From Pseudomonadota bacterium (GTDB lineage Bacteria; Pseudomonadota; Gammaproteobacteria; Burkholderiales; Burkholderiaceae_E), in contig JAKPAM010000008.1 in NCBI GenBank assembly GCA_029779435.1, positions 1-64,000 on the forward strand: a DNA stretch of 64,000 nt. The letters run 5' to 3'. Positions 8,946 through 48,824 of this stretch are shown piece after piece. The stretch's first letter is position 1; each line of letters opens with the position of its first letter. The notes under the pieces are model-generated. The model made no database searches. It was not told the DNA's origin and saw nothing but the letters and a program-made list of their open reading frames with translations. Both the position numbers and the translations under genes were made by a program.

Positions 8946-9198
8946 CGCGATTCTAGTCCACCCGGTGGCCGAGAGGTCGATCGTCGGCGCGCAGAACGAC
9001 AATGCGCATTCCATTGATGCCGCGCAAAACCCTTTCAGCTTCAGGGTGACTCCGGCTCCAGAAATCCGGATCGCGGCCCGTGTCCCCGCAGGATCGCCAT
9101 TTATTACGGATCGTTATTTGCACCGCACGATAGTTCGTTTGTGCAATGCACCAAAACCACCTAGGCTCACGCGCTTCCGGTAATTTCGCAGGACCACG

Positions 9199-10545: not shown

Positions 10546-13500
10546 GTGCGGATCAGGATCATTGCCGGCGCGGTCGGCGCATTGTGTTCAGCGATATTGC
10601 TCGGCGGCTGCGGCGGCGGCGATCTGGATTCCGCGTCGGCCGACGATAAGTCCGCGCCCGGAGCGCAACAGGGCGAGGCCTCGCTGGGCGGTTCGGTCCG
10701 GCTGTGGACGCGGGCCGCCACGCCGGCCTCGGTGGCGCAGTGGTCGCCGGTCATCAAGCTGTCGATCGTACCGGCCGCGGCGGCCAACCTGCCGGACGGC
10801 CGGATCCTGTTCTGGTCAGCGGAGCAGCGCTTCGGCTTCTCGCAGCGCGGCAGCACGTACACGACGGTGTTCGATCCGGCCACGCAGACGGCCACCGAGC
10901 GATTGATCACCGAAACCGGCCACGACATGTTCTGCCCGGGCACGACCAACCTGCCCGACGGCACGATCCTGATCACGGGAGGCATCGACAGCGAGAAGAG
11001 TTCGCTGTTCGACCCGTTCACCAACACCTGGCGGCGCGCCGCCAACATGAACGTGCCTCGCGGGTACCAGGCCAACACGCTGACGGCCACCGGCGAGGTG
11101 TTCACGCTCGGCGGCTCGTGGAGCGGCGGCCAGGGCGGCAAGGACGGCGAGCTGTGGACCGCGGATGGCGGATGGCGCCGGCTCACCGGCGTGCCGGTCG
11201 CGCCGGCGCTGGGCGAGAGCAACGAGGGCCCTTATCGCACCGACAACCACATGTGGCTGTTCGCCACCGCCGATCAGCGCGTCTTCCACGCTGGCCCGTC
11301 CGCGCGGATGAACTGGATCACGACGCGCGACAACGGCAGCATCGCCGCGGCGGGCACGCGCGGCGACGACATCTACAGCATGAGCGGCAACGCGGTGCTG
11401 TACGACATCGGCAAGATCCTGAAGGTGGGCGGCTCCAGCGGCTACACCGACGCGCCGGCCAACGCCAACAGCTACACGATCGACCTGGACGAGCAGGCCA
11501 CGGTGCGCAAGCTCGCGCCGATGGCGTACGCGCGCGCGTTCCACAACAGCGTCGTGCTGCCCAACGGCCAGGTCGTCGTCATCGGCGGACAGACCTGGGC
11601 GAAGAACTTCGACGACAACAACTCGGTAATGGTCCCCGAGCTGTGGGACCCGGCCACGCGCACGTTCTCGAAGATGCCGGCGATGTCGGTGCCGCGCAAC
11701 TACCACAGCGTCGCGCTGCTGATGACCGACGGACGCGTCGTCTCGTCCGGCGGCGGCTTGTGCGGCACCGGCTGCAGCGCCAACCATCCCGACCTGCAGA
11801 TCCTGACGCCGCCCTACCTGCTGAACGCCGACGGCAGCGCCGCCGCGCGACCGACGATCACGCAGGCGCCGGCGCAGGCCCTGCTGGGCAGCCAGATCAC
11901 CGTCAACACCAATGCCGCGGTCGCCTCGTTCGTGCTGATGCGCATGGGCTCGGTCACGCACACCGTCAACAACGACCAGCGCCGCGTGCCGGTCGCGCAC
12001 GTGTCCACCAGCGCCACGTCGCACACGGTCACGATCCCGTCCAACCCGGGCATCGCGCTGCCCGGCTACTACATGCTGTTCGCGCTGAATAGCAACGGCA
12101 CGCCGTCGGTGTCCCGCGTGCTGCGCGTGCACGGCGACGGCCTGCCGATGGTCATCAACCCCGGCGCGCAGTCGAGTTACGCGAACACGGACGTCGACGT
12201 GACGATAACGCGCAACGGCGCCGCCGGCACGTTCTCGGCCACCGGCCTGCCGCAGGGTCTGTCCATCGATCCGGCCACTGGCCGCGTCACGGGCCGCGCC
12301 GCCACGGCCGGCAGCCACCGCGCGACGATCTCGATCGCCGGCAACGGCGGCGCCACCAGCACCGACGTGACATGGACCGTGTCGACCAACACCAGCAGCG
12401 GCCCCGCCAATGGCCAGTCGAGCGTCGCCGCGCGCTATGTCAGGCTCGAAGCCCTGTCCGAGATCAACGGCAATCCGTGGACGTCGATGGCCGAGTTCAA
12501 CGTGCTCGACGCCGCGGGGGCCCCGATGTCGCGCACCGGCTGGACGGCCCAGGCCGATAGCGTCGAGACCGCCAACGAGAACGGCAGCGTCGCCAACGTC
12601 CTGGACGGCAATGCCAACACGCACTGGCACACGCAGTGGAGCGGCGGCTACAGCCCTCCGGCGCCGCATACGCTGATCGTCGACATGAAGTCGTCCCGCC
12701 CCGTCGGCGGCGTCCAGGTTCTGCCGCGCACCGGCGGCGGCAACGGCACGATCGCGCAGTTCCGGCTGTCGACCAGCATCGACGGCAACACGTGGACGAC
12801 GCATGCCGACGGCGATTTCAAGCAGTGGGCCACCGGCAACGCGACGGCCAAGACCGTACTGATCGGCAACCTCGCCCGCGGCAAGGCCGCGACGCAGTCG
12901 GGCACGGGCGGCGGCTCGGCGGCGCTGGCCGTCGACGGCAGCATCGGCACCGGCTCGACCGCCATCACCACGAGCCAGGCCAATGCCTGGTGGCAGATGG
13001 ACCTGGGCGCGTCGCATACGCTGAGCATGATCCGGCTGTGGAACCGCGCCGATTGCTGCGCTGAGCAACTCGCCAAGTTCTCGGTGTTCGTCTCGCCGTC
13101 GGACATGAGCGGACGCACTTATGCCGACCTGAACGCCGACAGCAGTGTCTGGCGCTACCAGGTCAGCGGCCAGGCCGCGCGGGAGCTGCTGATCCGCGGC
13201 AATGCGCGCGGCCGCTACCTGCGCGTGCAGCGCAGCGACACCGGCGTGCTGGCACTGTCGGACGTCGAAGCCTATGGCGTGGCCAACGTGCAGAGCGCGC
13301 CGGTCCTCAAGGCGCAGGCCGACGTCATCAGCGACGCCGGCAAGGCCGCGTCGCTGGCGATCAGCGCCACCGACGCGGATGGCGATGCGATCCGCTTCAG
13401 CGCGACAGGCCTGCCCCCGGGCCTGGCGATCGATGCCGCCACCGGCCGCATCACGGGCACGCCGACCACGCCCGGCTCGTCGATCGTGCGGATCACCGCG

Positions 13501-34750: not shown

Positions 34751-36904
34751 ATGACAAAAAGGGAAGACATGCGGAAATTCATGGGGAAAAGGACTTATAC
34801 GCCGATCGTTTGGGCGATCGCGGCGATGGCCGGAGGCATGCTCATGGCGACGCCGACCCGTGCCCAGCAGACGAATGCCGGCTCCGGAAGCACGCCCCGC
34901 CAGGCTGGCAGTGTCGCCCCATCGACGACGGCGCAGGCGAACGACTCGGCCCTCGATACCGTGACCGTCATCGGCACCGTCGACAAGATGCAGAGCCTGG
35001 ATTTCTACGCCCCGAACTCCAGCGCCGTGATCAAGCGCAGCGACATCGACGAGCAAGGGTCCCGCAAGCTCGACCAGTCGCTGCAGTACCAGGCCGGCGT
35101 CCTCAGCGAGCCTTATGGCGGAGACAACAAGGTCGAGTGGTTCAAGATCCGGGGCTTCGATGCATCGGTCTCGCTGGACGGCACGCCGACGACGCCCAAC
35201 GGCTACTTCGTCTGGAAGCCCGAGATCTTCGGCGTCGAATCGGTCGAAGTGCTGAAAGGGCCGAACTCGCTGGTGTTCGGCGCGTCCGAATCGGGCGGCG
35301 TGGTCAACCTGATCACCAAGCGGCCGCAAAAGAAGGAATCCCTGCTGCTGAATGCGGAGGTCGGCAACCGTGACCGCATGGGCATCGGCGTCGACTACAA
35401 CGGCATCGCCAACCCCGAAGGCACGGTGTACTACCGCCTCGTGATGCAGGCCCGCAGCGAAGACGGCATGCAGCGCCGCACGGACATGAAGAGCTACTAC
35501 CTGGCACCCTCCGTGACCGTCGATTTCACCGGACGCACGTCGCTGACGCTGCTGACCAGCTTCCAGCACGAAGACGGCCGTCCGACCAACGGCTTCCTGC
35601 CCGCGCATGGCACCATCATCGACACGCCCTATGGTCGGATCGATCGACGCACCAACGCCGGCGAACCCGATTTCGACCGGCTCAAGCGCACGCAGCTCAG
35701 CGCCGGATTGCTGTTCAAGCACGAGTTCGGCCAGGGGTGGACCTTCACGCAGAACTACAAGTTCTCGCGCCTGGATCTCGACCAACGCAACGTCTTCGCC
35801 TACGGCTCGAACGGCGACCGCGAACTGCTGCGCGGCTATACGTTCACCGACGGCAAGACCACGAACCACTATCTCGACACGCGCCTGAACGGCCGGCTGC
35901 GCCTGAGCGATACCGTCGAGATCCTGCCCGTGGTCGGCATCGACTACCTGAAATCGGATACGTCCGGCCAGAACAACGGCTTCGGCATGGCGCCGAACCT
36001 GGACATGTTCGCGCCGGTGTACGGCGCGCCGTTCGCGGTCAGCGCGACGCCCTACGGGCTGGACTCCAAGCAACTGGGCCTGTATGCGTCCGCCCAGCTT
36101 CGGGTGGCCAAGCGCTGGAACTTCAATGCCGGCATTCGCCATGACCGCGCGCGCAGCAACGGCAGCATCAGCGGCGTCGACTCCGGTTACGACGTGAGCC
36201 ACAACAGCGTCAACGTCGGCGCGATGTACATCAGCGACTACGGGATCTCGCCGTACATCAGCCGATCCGAATCGTTCAAGCCGATCGCCGGCGTCGATGG
36301 CTATGGCAACACCTACCGACCCTATGAAGGGAGGCAGACCGAAGTCGGGGTCAAGCTGGAGCCCTCGTGGCTCGATGGCGGGACCTTCACCGTCGCCTGG
36401 TTCGACATCGAGGAGAAGAACGCGCTGATCTCGGACGTCACCAACATCCAGACGCAGGGCGGCAAGCGCACCAATCAGGGCCTTGAGCTGCAAGGGGATT
36501 TCAACCTGTCGCCCAGCACGGCATTGCGGGCGACCTATACCCACAACCATTCGCGCCAGGACATCAGCGACACGCAGACCATCCGGACGCCGCTGATCCC
36601 TAAGCATCAGGCCAGCCTCTGGCTGCGCCACCGCATGGAAGTACCCGGCGGCAACGGGCTGACGATCGCCGCGGGCGCGCGCTACAACGGTTCGACCGAG
36701 GACCAGCGCTACCACGCCGGCGAACGCGTCCCCAGCTATGTCCTGGTGGATCTGATGATGCGCTACGACCTGACCCGCGAGATCGCTCTGCAACTGAATG
36801 CGCGCAACCTGACCGACAAGACCTACGTCAGCGGTTGCGACTTCTACTGCTACTACGGCAGCGGACGAACCCTGGATCTGCAGCTCAAGTACGCGTGGCG
36901 CTGA
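34751..36904 (+). CDS. TonB-dependent siderophore receptor
   Basis: Signal peptide, plug (SSAVIKRSDIDEQGSRKLDQSLQYQAGVLSEPYGGDNKVEWFKIRGFDASVSLDG), barrel and C-terminal strand GRTLDLQLKYAWR. Confidence 0.93.
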   Translation: MTKREDMRKFMGKRTYTPIVWAIAAMAGGMLMATPTRAQQTNAGSGSTPRQAGSVAPSTTAQANDSALDTVTVIGTVDKMQSLDFYAPNSSAVIKRSDIDEQGSRKLDQSLQYQAGVLSEPYGGDNKVEWFKIRGFDASVSLDGTPTTPNGYFVWKPEIFGVESVEVLKGPNSLVFGASESGGVVNLITKRPQKKESLLLNAEVGNRDRMGIGVDYNGIANPEGTVYYRLVMQARSEDGMQRRTDMKSYYLAPSVTVDFTGRTSLTLLTSFQHEDGRPTNGFLPAHGTIIDTPYGRIDRRTNAGEPDFDRLKRTQLSAGLLFKHEFGQGWTFTQNYKFSRLDLDQRNVFAYGSNGDRELLRGYTFTDGKTTNHYLDTRLNGRLRLSDTVEILPVVGIDYLKSDTSGQNNGFGMAPNLDMFAPVYGAPFAVSATPYGLDSKQLGLYASAQLRVAKRWNFNAGIRHDRARSNGSISGVDSGYDVSHNSVNVGAMYISDYGISPYISRSESFKPIAGVDGYGNTYRPYEGRQTEVGVKLEPSWLDGGTFTVAWFDIEEKNALISDVTNIQTQGGKRTNQGLELQGDFNLSPSTALRATYTHNHSRQDISDTQTIRTPLIPKHQASLWLRHRMEVPGGNGLTIAAGARYNGSTEDQRYHAGERVPSYVLVDLMMRYDLTREIALQLNARNLTDKTYVSGCDFYCYYGSGRTLDLQLKYAWR

Positions 36905-46750: not shown

Positions 46751-47170
46751 ATGAACGTGCAAGCCCTGACAACCGACCAGTTCGACGCCACCGTCACCGG
46801 CAACGACATCGTCATCATCGACTTCTGGGCTCCATGGTGCGGGCCCTGCCGCGGCTTCGCGCCGGTGTTCGAGAAGGCCGCCACCGAGAACCCCGACGTC
46901 AAGTTCGTCAAGGTCAACACCGACGAGGAACAGGCGCTGGCCGGCCACTTCGGTATCCGCTCGATCCCGACACTGCTGGTGTTCCGCGAGCAGGTCATCG
47001 TTTTCCAGCAACCCGGCGCATTGCCCAAGGGTGCGCTCGACGACCTGATCCGCCAGGTCCGCGACCTGGACATGGTCGAGGTCAAGCGCGGCGCCGTCCC
47101 TTATGGGCAGGACGCCGATGACGATGGCGATGACGACGGCGGCGACCAGGCCCCGCGCACACTGCAATGA
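46751..47170 (+). CDS. Thioredoxin with acidic C-terminal tail
   Basis: VIIDFWAPWCGPCRGFAPVFEKAATENPDVKFVKVNTDEEQALAGHFGIRSIPTLLVFRE; tail DADDDGDDDGGDQ. Confidence 0.95.
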   Translation: MNVQALTTDQFDATVTGNDIVIIDFWAPWCGPCRGFAPVFEKAATENPDVKFVKVNTDEEQALAGHFGIRSIPTLLVFREQVIVFQQPGALPKGALDDLIRQVRDLDMVEVKRGAVPYGQDADDDGDDDGGDQAPRTLQ

Positions 47171-47189
47171 GCGGACACGGGCTTCTCCG

Positions 47190-47906
47190 ATGACACCACC
47201 GCTATCAGCCCCGCGCATCACCCGCCACGGTGATCTGTCCACGATCGAGCTGGCCACCGGTGCCGAGCCGGCTGCCAGCGTCATCTGGCTGCATGGCCTG
47301 GGCGCCAACGGCGACGACTTCGTGCCGATCGTCCCCGAGCTGGATCTGAAGGCGCTGCGCCAGGCCACCGGCGACGTGCGCTTCGTATTCCCCAACGCGC
47401 CGAGCCGACCGGTCACCATCAACAACGGCTACGTGATGCCGGCGTGGTACGACATCTTCGGCTTCGGCGGGCGCGCCGGCGAGGATGAAGCCGGGCTGCG
47501 CGCGTCGCAGGCCGCGATAGAGGGGCTGATCGAACGCGAGCGCACGCGCGGCGTCCCGGCACGCAAGATCGTGCTGGCCGGCTTCTCGCAGGGCTGCGCG
47601 ATGGCGCTGATGACGGGCCTGCGCCACGCCGAACCGCTGGCCGGCCTGATGGGCTTGTCCGGCTATCTGCCGCTAGCCGCCAAGACCGCCGCCGAGCGCC
47701 ATGTGGCCAACCGCGACGTACCGATCTTCATGGCGCACGGCACGCAGGACCCGATGGTCCCGATCGAACGGGCCGAAGCTTCGCGCGATGCGCTGCAGGC
47801 GATGGGATATACGGTGCAGTGGCACGCTTACCCGATGCCGCATTCGGTATGCCCCGAAGAGATCGACGACATCAGCGACTGGCTGGTGAAGGTGCTCGGC
47901 GCATAG
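47190..47906 (+). CDS. Carboxylesterase/phospholipase (alpha/beta hydrolase)
   Basis: IWLHGLGANGDDFVPIVPEL, LAGFSQGCAMAL, MAHGTQDPMVPIERA, YPMPHSVCPEEI. Confidence 0.93.
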   Translation: MTPPLSAPRITRHGDLSTIELATGAEPAASVIWLHGLGANGDDFVPIVPELDLKALRQATGDVRFVFPNAPSRPVTINNGYVMPAWYDIFGFGGRAGEDEAGLRASQAAIEGLIERERTRGVPARKIVLAGFSQGCAMALMTGLRHAEPLAGLMGLSGYLPLAAKTAAERHVANRDVPIFMAHGTQDPMVPIERAEASRDALQAMGYTVQWHAYPMPHSVCPEEIDDISDWLVKVLGA

Positions 47907-47910
47907 TGCA

Positions 47911-48182
47911 CTAGGGCCTGTTAACGCTAAGATCGCCCCCGCGCCGAGGGGCGTCAAGCGCTGTGGCTAGGCGAGGGCGAAGCGGCGTACCCGAGGTACG
48001 TAATGAGCCCGCAACGACGCCACAGCGCTTGACGCCCCTCGGCCCGTAGGGTGAAGCCCTGTTCGAGCCCGTCGCCGCGTTGCAAATGCTCGCCATAGCC
48101 CCGCTATGGCTGTGCTTTGCGCCTTGCTGCAGGCTCGAACCGGGCTTCACGCGGGGGCGATCTTAGCGTTAATAGGCCCTAG
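47911..48182. repeat. 272-bp noncoding element with nested inverted repeats (predicted three-way junction)
   Basis: 33-bp terminal inverted repeats (47911-47943 / 48150-48182, one mismatch) enclose stem A (47943-47967 / 48019-48043, 25 bp perfect) and stem B (48051-48069 / 48132-48150, one mismatch), each with apical sub-hairpins (CGTACC-CGA-GGTACG; GCCATAG...CTATGGC). Confidence 0.92.
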
Positions 48183-48320: not shown

Positions 48321-48824
48321 ATGATCAAGGAAGTAACCGGCGACATCCTGTTGAGCAACGCCGATCTGCTGGCCCACGGCATCTCGGCCCATGACCCGTT
48401 CGACAGCGGTTTGGCGCTGGCATTGCGCGAACGCTGGCCGTCACTGGTCAAGGACTATCGCCACGACATCCGCTCCCACGCGATCGAAGCAGGCGCGATC
48501 TGGGCATGGACCGGCGTGCAGGAAGGCGGCGGCACGCGCAAGATCGTCAACCTCGTGACGCAGGACACGCTGGGCCAGGGCCCCACGGCCAAACCCGGCA
48601 AGGCGACGCTCGAGAACGTGCGTCATGCGCTGCAGAAACTGGCACGGTTCGTCAAGGAAGAACGCATTCGCAGCGTGGCGCTTCCCCGGCTCGCCACCGG
48701 CGTCGGCGGACTCGAATGGGCGCAGGTCAAGCCGCTGGTCGAGCAGCACCTCGGTGACGTCGGCGTGCCGGTCATCGTGTACGCGACTTACCACAAAGGA
48801 GAGCAGGCGGACGAGGGCCTTTGA
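48321..48824 (+). CDS. Macro domain protein
   Basis: MIKEVTGDILLSNADLLAHGISAHDPFDSGLALALRERWPSLVKDY; IRSVALPRLATGVGGLEWAQVKPLVEQHL. Confidence 0.88.
   Translation: MIKEVTGDILLSNADLLAHGISAHDPFDSGLALALRERWPSLVKDYRHDIRSHAIEAGAIWAWTGVQEGGGTRKIVNLVTQDTLGQGPTAKPGKATLENVRHALQKLARFVKEERIRSVALPRLATGVGGLEWAQVKPLVEQHLGDVGVPVIVYATYHKGEQADEGL

Follow-up and report, generated by a model that had tools for sequence, protein, structure and literature searches.

An IS5-type MITE whose conserved interior folds into a four-way junction with two capped arms

The described systems closest to the element analysed here include the Correia repeats of Neisseria (CREE/NEMIS), which, like it, are small non-coding MITEs with terminal inverted repeats, a strong hairpin and a cap module, and duplicate a TA target (in CREE sometimes CA; PMC2649163). 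Features reported for CREE include an IHF site, outward promoters and RNase III processing (PMC2649163, PMC10969869); the enzyme that mobilises them was undetermined as of PMC2649163. RUP, ERIC, YPAL and other MITEs resemble our element in being non-autonomous, in their TA or short duplications and in their folded transcripts, and for RUP mobilisation in trans by an IS has been proposed, but they are described as stem-loops formed by end-to-end pairing, without a fixed four-way junction (PMC2229807). The CIR repeats of Caulobacter and Brucella share with it two arms and a linker; they differ in that they carry a GANTC motif, their target site duplication is unknown and the review's table lists no terminal repeat for them (PMC2229807). 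REP/REPIN sequences are likewise palindromic, extragenic, non-autonomous and spread in trans, but are 20-40-bp palindromes tagged with GTAG/CGTC, are associated with tyrosine (RAYT) transposases and have neither a TA duplication nor IS5 ends (PMC3116915, PMC3733652); the GTAG/CGTC tag is absent from the ends of our element. As described, the tandem ~90-bp BRE repeat of Bordetella looked different (PMC3110155). An attC/integron site and a RAYT-REP were considered in view of the conserved unpaired bases; on visual inspection the attC cores did not match.

The element lies in a metagenome-assembled genome (4.97 Mb, 289 contigs, 84% complete), within the 64,000-nt stretch of DNA that was analysed as a whole (the window). 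A phospholipase/carboxylesterase gene (47103-47906, PF02230) precedes it and a macro-domain gene (48321-48824, PF01661) follows; the former ends in a TAG stop codon 4 bp ahead of the CTAG that opens the feature. The element proper is short (266 bp) and has no coding capacity (Table 1). The first-pass annotation had placed an almost seamless fold at 47911-48182 and had not taken it for a simple terminator. This structural reading was correct, the fold being very strong, as were the coordinates and stems: we re-found the outer 33-bp repeats with one mismatch (97% over 33 bp), the perfect 25-bp stem A and the 19-bp stem B with one mismatch. The minimum free energy was -212 kcal/mol (286 nt), whereas 200 dinucleotide-shuffled sequences gave -125 +- 5 (z = -18.4). 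In the minimum free energy fold of 47913-48180, an outer helix of 30 bp, arm A of 101 nt, a mini-hairpin of 7 nt and arm B of 100 nt leave 0 nucleotides unpaired. The junction had been described as three-way with CCGTAGG (48044-48050) unpaired; it is four-way, because these nucleotides form a CC-GTA-GG mini-hairpin. Each stem had also been assigned its own apical palindrome; the caps at the tips of the two arms are homologous, conserved and inverted relative to each other.

Table 1. Parts of the element and their positions in the window
Feature	Position	Strand	Remark
Whole feature, CTAG to CTAG	47911..48182	.	
Element proper, GGGCC...GGCCC	47914-48179		Boundary from the empty/filled comparison of a relative
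Left TA target duplication copy	47912..47913	.	Within YTAR/CTAG
Right TA target duplication copy	48180..48181	.	
Left terminal inverted repeat AGGGCCTGTTAACGCT	47913..47928	+	IS5-family type
Right terminal inverted repeat AGGGCCTATTAACGCT	48165..48180	-	One mismatch
Outer helix, 5' side	47913..47942	.	30 bp, pairs with 48151-48180
Outer helix, 3' side	48151..48180	.	
Arm A	47943..48043	+	101 nt; 25-bp shaft 47943-47967 / 48019-48043
Arm A cap	47965..48020	+	Model R1, 36.9 bits
Junction mini-hairpin CC-GTA-GG	48044..48050	.	Loop GNA here, TNC on the opposite strand
Arm B	48051..48150	-	100 nt; 19-bp shaft, one mismatch
Arm B cap	48074..48128	-	Model R1, 42.7 bits; orientation opposite to that of cap A

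Among 400 genomes from the order, 58 carried the terminal repeat AGGGCCTGTTMACNCT; a reversed-pattern control gave 2 matches. We then scanned the GTDB species genomes for two facing exact terminal repeats 254-284 bp apart, leaving the interior unconstrained, and obtained at least 120 matching stretches and at least 121 elements of 265-284 bp. Although 254-284 bp was permitted, 106 of the 121 listed elements were 265-269 bp long, and among the matches listed the half-length (terminal repeat to centre) was 133-135 in 199 of 220 halves. The matches listed came from beta-, gamma- and zetaproteobacteria and from Acidobacteria MAGs; their hosts included Variovorax, Acidovorax, Hydrogenophaga, Achromobacter, Pseudomonas, Lysobacter, Dyella, Alcanivorax, Thiodiazotropha and Mariprofundaceae. 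Variovorax and Andreprevotia are hosts in which copies are numerous. Once similar elements had been removed, 59 were left for the comparison of folds. Four helices met at the first multiloop in 51 of these, three helices in 6, and 2 formed a single long palindrome. Of the 51 four-helix elements, most had an outer helix of ~30, arms of ~100, a hairpin of 7-9 nt and 0 unpaired nucleotides, and a few were other four-branch folds. In L151 (Agaribacterium) and L195 (Thalassolituus) the arms are complementary to each other, giving one ~266-bp palindrome. Mean identity was 48% in an in-register set of 8 elements. Pairing of the outer helix beyond the terminal repeat was 0.82 compared to 0.42 between elements, and pairing of the arm shafts was 0.79 compared to 0.42-0.43. 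Pairing has been preserved by evolution while the letters have not, and the geometry of the four-way junction is nearly fixed.

The interior of the element consists of two copies of an arm of ~100 nt, each with the same conserved cap, and of a GNA mini-hairpin between them. Among the matches listed, a centred CCCNNNGGG was present in 110 elements, and 101 of these had a GNA loop at the junction (TNC on the other strand), as GAA (69), GCA (15), GGA (13) or GTA (4). GNA triloops are exceptionally stable in DNA, as UNCG loops are in RNA. The arm tips carry the cap C[A/T]AGGCGC...GCAACGMCG, each cap reading inward from its own end. As the alignment for the cap model was chosen with cap motifs, the invariance of the caps partly reflects that choice; column statistics made without it peak at the same cap positions. 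The resulting covariance model (R1) found both caps in the window and, at E 2e-9 to 0.05 over 118 kb, further caps in MITEs whose termini differ. The one-arm elements with such different termini measured 154-162 bp. The cross architecture itself recurs under another terminal repeat: in genome G368, the 268-bp element L330 has AGAACGTGTTGACGATC ends and folds as 30/101/7/100/30. The AGAACGTGTTGACGATC-ended two-armed family is present in G368 in high copy (L330, L340 and about 30 further places), and one copy, L330, was folded.

Further cap-bearing families were seen. The window's genome (G000) contains a second MITE family with ends CTAGTGGGCTGTGCGGTAACTTCTG... and one cap, also at gene ends (L019, L026, L030). 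A third one-cap family has ends GAACCTGTGAACGAATC or GAAGCTGTGAACCAATC and occurs both there (L024, L025, L027) and in G028/G036 (L033, L039, L040, L043, L048, L050); it apparently duplicates TNA (TGA/TAA) and so likewise lands on stop codons. Caps with a fixed tip GACAGTAC...GTACGGC, close to the Neisseria Correia cap, were present at L317, L323 and L328 (G265) and at L318 and L338 (G060), in short hairpins that lack the element's ends.

The first-pass annotation had left open a mobile element or a structured RNA family, and the non-autonomous mobile element is the part that stood: the element is multicopy and has IS5-type terminal repeats, TA is duplicated on insertion, and congeners of a relative have empty sites. 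Counting copies, as had been proposed, gave a second full copy (96%) in its own genome together with many partial ones, several of them cut off at the end of a contig, as is typical of unresolved repeats. In this genome the element occurs without arms, as a 63-nt hairpin (L021), with a single arm (169-170 nt; L006, L007), with an arm and a stub (184 nt; L011) and with both arms. The closest copy pairs found are often 95-99.6% identical, several within one assembly, which reflects recent amplification. A plasmid search with an Achromobacter copy (distant mode) and an E. coli search with a Pseudomonas copy (near mode) gave no match.

The flanks show YTAR, with T and A adjoining the element at both ends, one base on each side being fixed by the search pattern itself. 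The proposed look for empty sites was positive in a relative, G265, where we compared the joined flanks of five copies with nine congeners. Congener matches crossed the insertion point for several copies; at the single-base level, 4 of 5 copies had at least one spanning match and 1 of 5 had none. The spanning match lay at an intact YTAR for L242, L243 and L247, and at L246 the relatives have CTTG. At L243, the filled site reads GGGGTTA/GGGCC...GGCCC/TAGTCC (slashes mark the element's boundaries) and the empty site GGGGTTAGGCCAGC, so TA was duplicated and the first G of the element restores TAG. The CTAG that had been suggested as the target duplication is thus the target consensus, of which TA alone is duplicated; CTAG as a 4-bp duplication (IS5 YTAR) was ruled out by the TTAG empty site. 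A frame of at least 150 codons ended exactly in the boundary TAG in 45 of 214 flanks, a raw count based on ORFs called by length only. Genes around the elements were convergent in 20 cases, tandem in 37 and divergent in 14, with no strong bias.

IS5-family insertion sequences share with the element the terminal repeat TAGGGC[C/G]TGTT[A/C]ACACT and the TA/YTAR target. Genome G352 has two 806-bp IS copies with AGGGCCTGTTAACACTA ends, whose two overlapping frames match DUF4096 (PF13340), DDE_Tnp_1 (PF01609) and NCBIfam transpos_IS5_3, and similar IS with the same or near-same ends are present in G028, from the window's family, and in G197. We take these IS to be IS427-like. Unlike the element, they are ~0.77-0.83 kb long in the three genomes and encode DUF4096 and a DDE transposase, and R1 found no cap in the four IS loci examined. 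Plasmids of Cupriavidus oxalaticus and Burkholderia thailandensis carry annotated IS5 transposases with CTAGGGCGTGTTCACACTA ends. In the window's own genome, which is 84% complete, we found no IS5-type IS that has the element's ends; the nearest lies in a different genus of the window's family. IS630, considered in view of CTAG/TA, was ruled out as the matching IS encodes an IS5 transposase. On contig C286 of the window's genome (L258), an IS5-type transposase is followed by CTAGTGTCCTGTCCCG and cap-like sequence, and is possibly the partner of another MITE class. Judged from sequence comparison, the identity of the element as a MITE moved by an IS5-type transposase is the secure part of our reading, and its mobility is well supported.

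Is the fold maintained in DNA or in RNA? We counted changes at paired sites in 158 element pairs that were 70-95% identical and mutually non-independent. Both sides had changed with Watson-Crick pairing kept at 1616 paired sites and one side at 1128, so that compensated double changes exceeded single-side changes in the covariation check that had been proposed; about 462 double changes of any kind would be expected with independent sides. Wobble made up 27% of the single changes (310/1128), compared to an estimated share of about 28% from transitions alone, and isolated G.U pairs numbered 100 on one strand and 115 on the other. Pairing is thus conserved, and G.U is not favoured over A.C. This lack of a wobble preference speaks against an RNA of one particular strand, and favours either DNA or the two strands alike; the fold is more probably maintained in DNA than in a strand-specific RNA. 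What the wobble test excludes is a single-stranded ncRNA in one orientation; an RNA role on either strand is compatible with it. A strand-specific ncRNA was rejected on the strand symmetry of the element and its absence from Rfam, where no match to the element reached the gathering score (best MIR1858, 25.7 bits against 137) and the matches were to miRNA models alone, below threshold and at chance level. The structured RNA of the first-pass annotation is accordingly not favoured.

The same MITE might nevertheless keep its fold for an RNA role, if elements at gene 3' ends gave transcripts whose structures, on either strand, are processed by RNase III or are stabilising, as reported for Correia/NEMIS. 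The gene stop codons found exactly at the boundary would suit such a role, and the complement of the junction loop, C(UNCG)G, is a stable RNA loop. RNase III binds or cleaves CREE RNA (PMC2649163). However, wobble is not preferred on either strand and gene orientation shows no strong bias, and we regard this role as rather unlikely. The excess of double changes could also stem from template-switch repair of palindromes. The pairing would then be functionless, intrastrand template switching homogenising the palindromes of the same MITE and the architecture being passively inherited; doubles exceed singles, as templated repair would give, and two elements are one long palindrome. Template switching alone, however, would not hold the arm lengths (~100 nt), the GNA loop and the unpaired cap positions across divergent hosts, nor give the same geometry under the other terminal repeat of L330, which makes this explanation unlikely. 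A stand-alone structured RNA gene or riboswitch would account for a very stable fold with covariation, but given the strand symmetry, empty sites, TA duplication, IS ends and missing Rfam family it is hardly credible.

We consider it probable, then, that the element is a non-autonomous IS5-type MITE whose conserved cross is used as folded DNA. An IS5-family transposase recognising AGGGC[C/G]TGTT[A/C]ACNCT would insert the element at YTAR and duplicate TA. As the element starts with G, its first bases rebuild TAG, and insertion into a stop codon leaves the gene length unchanged. The element may then become single-stranded, or be extruded under supercoiling, in which state its two ends would be paired and its caps presented symmetrically, on shafts of ~25 bp. 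A putative cap-reading protein, either a transposase or a host factor, could favour end pairing, transposition or survival of the palindrome. Arms can be lost as units, giving the one-arm and no-arm hairpins. Most economically, we infer, the cross functions by aiding movement or survival as folded DNA through such a cap-reading protein. The novel part is the interior, a conserved cross with caps. We found no description of the two-armed family in Rfam or in the literature searched (DNA words, and MITEs with junctions or cruciforms; subscription literature and ISfinder were outside this scope), which does not prove it undescribed. Literature searches on DNA motifs returned unrelated papers alone, one of them a primer coincidence.

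How is the element related to Correia? At 153-157 bp (PMC2649163), Correia elements are similar in size to the one-arm elements here (154-170 bp). They differ in having one arm and no central mini-hairpin, whereas the element has two arms and a mini-hairpin; in their terminal repeat, TAGTGGATTAA..., the CREE-type repeat being absent from the element's AGGGCCTGTTMACNCT ends; and in having been reported, in the literature covered, solely from Neisseria. Over 100 kb of a gonococcal chromosome, the three best R1 matches (E 0.013, 0.021 and 0.029) lay inside Correia-ended elements, at 35771-35872, 13318-13386 and 9090-9182, and four other Correia-ended elements in the same 100 kb had no R1 match. 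The search was aimed at Correia from the outset; a 36-mer of the Correia sequence had located the first of the three regions but not the other two. The matches are individually weak and their joint placement is the argument. The 2.17-Mb gonococcal records NZ_CP119140 and NZ_CP119142 are filed as plasmids but are evidently chromosomes. Tentatively, and with the odds somewhat against it, the elements may form a superfamily in which Neisseria Correia is a one-arm branch, a two-capped DNA cross is bound by a putative hairpin-reading protein, and selection sees geometry and not sequence.

MITEs are usually viewed as decayed IS remnants with an irrelevant interior; here the interior is the conserved part, a four-way junction of nearly constant size, perfect in pairing but free in sequence, across four major bacterial groups. 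Elements that end exactly in stop codons affect many genes at their 3' ends and interrupt assemblies, and the family offers natural multicopy DNA cruciforms that are open to testing. For MITEs that carry caps, transposases of the IS5 type become candidates for the mobilising enzyme, a point of relevance to how Correia elements move. If the superfamily reading is true, the putative cap-binding protein would be a transposase partner or a host factor.
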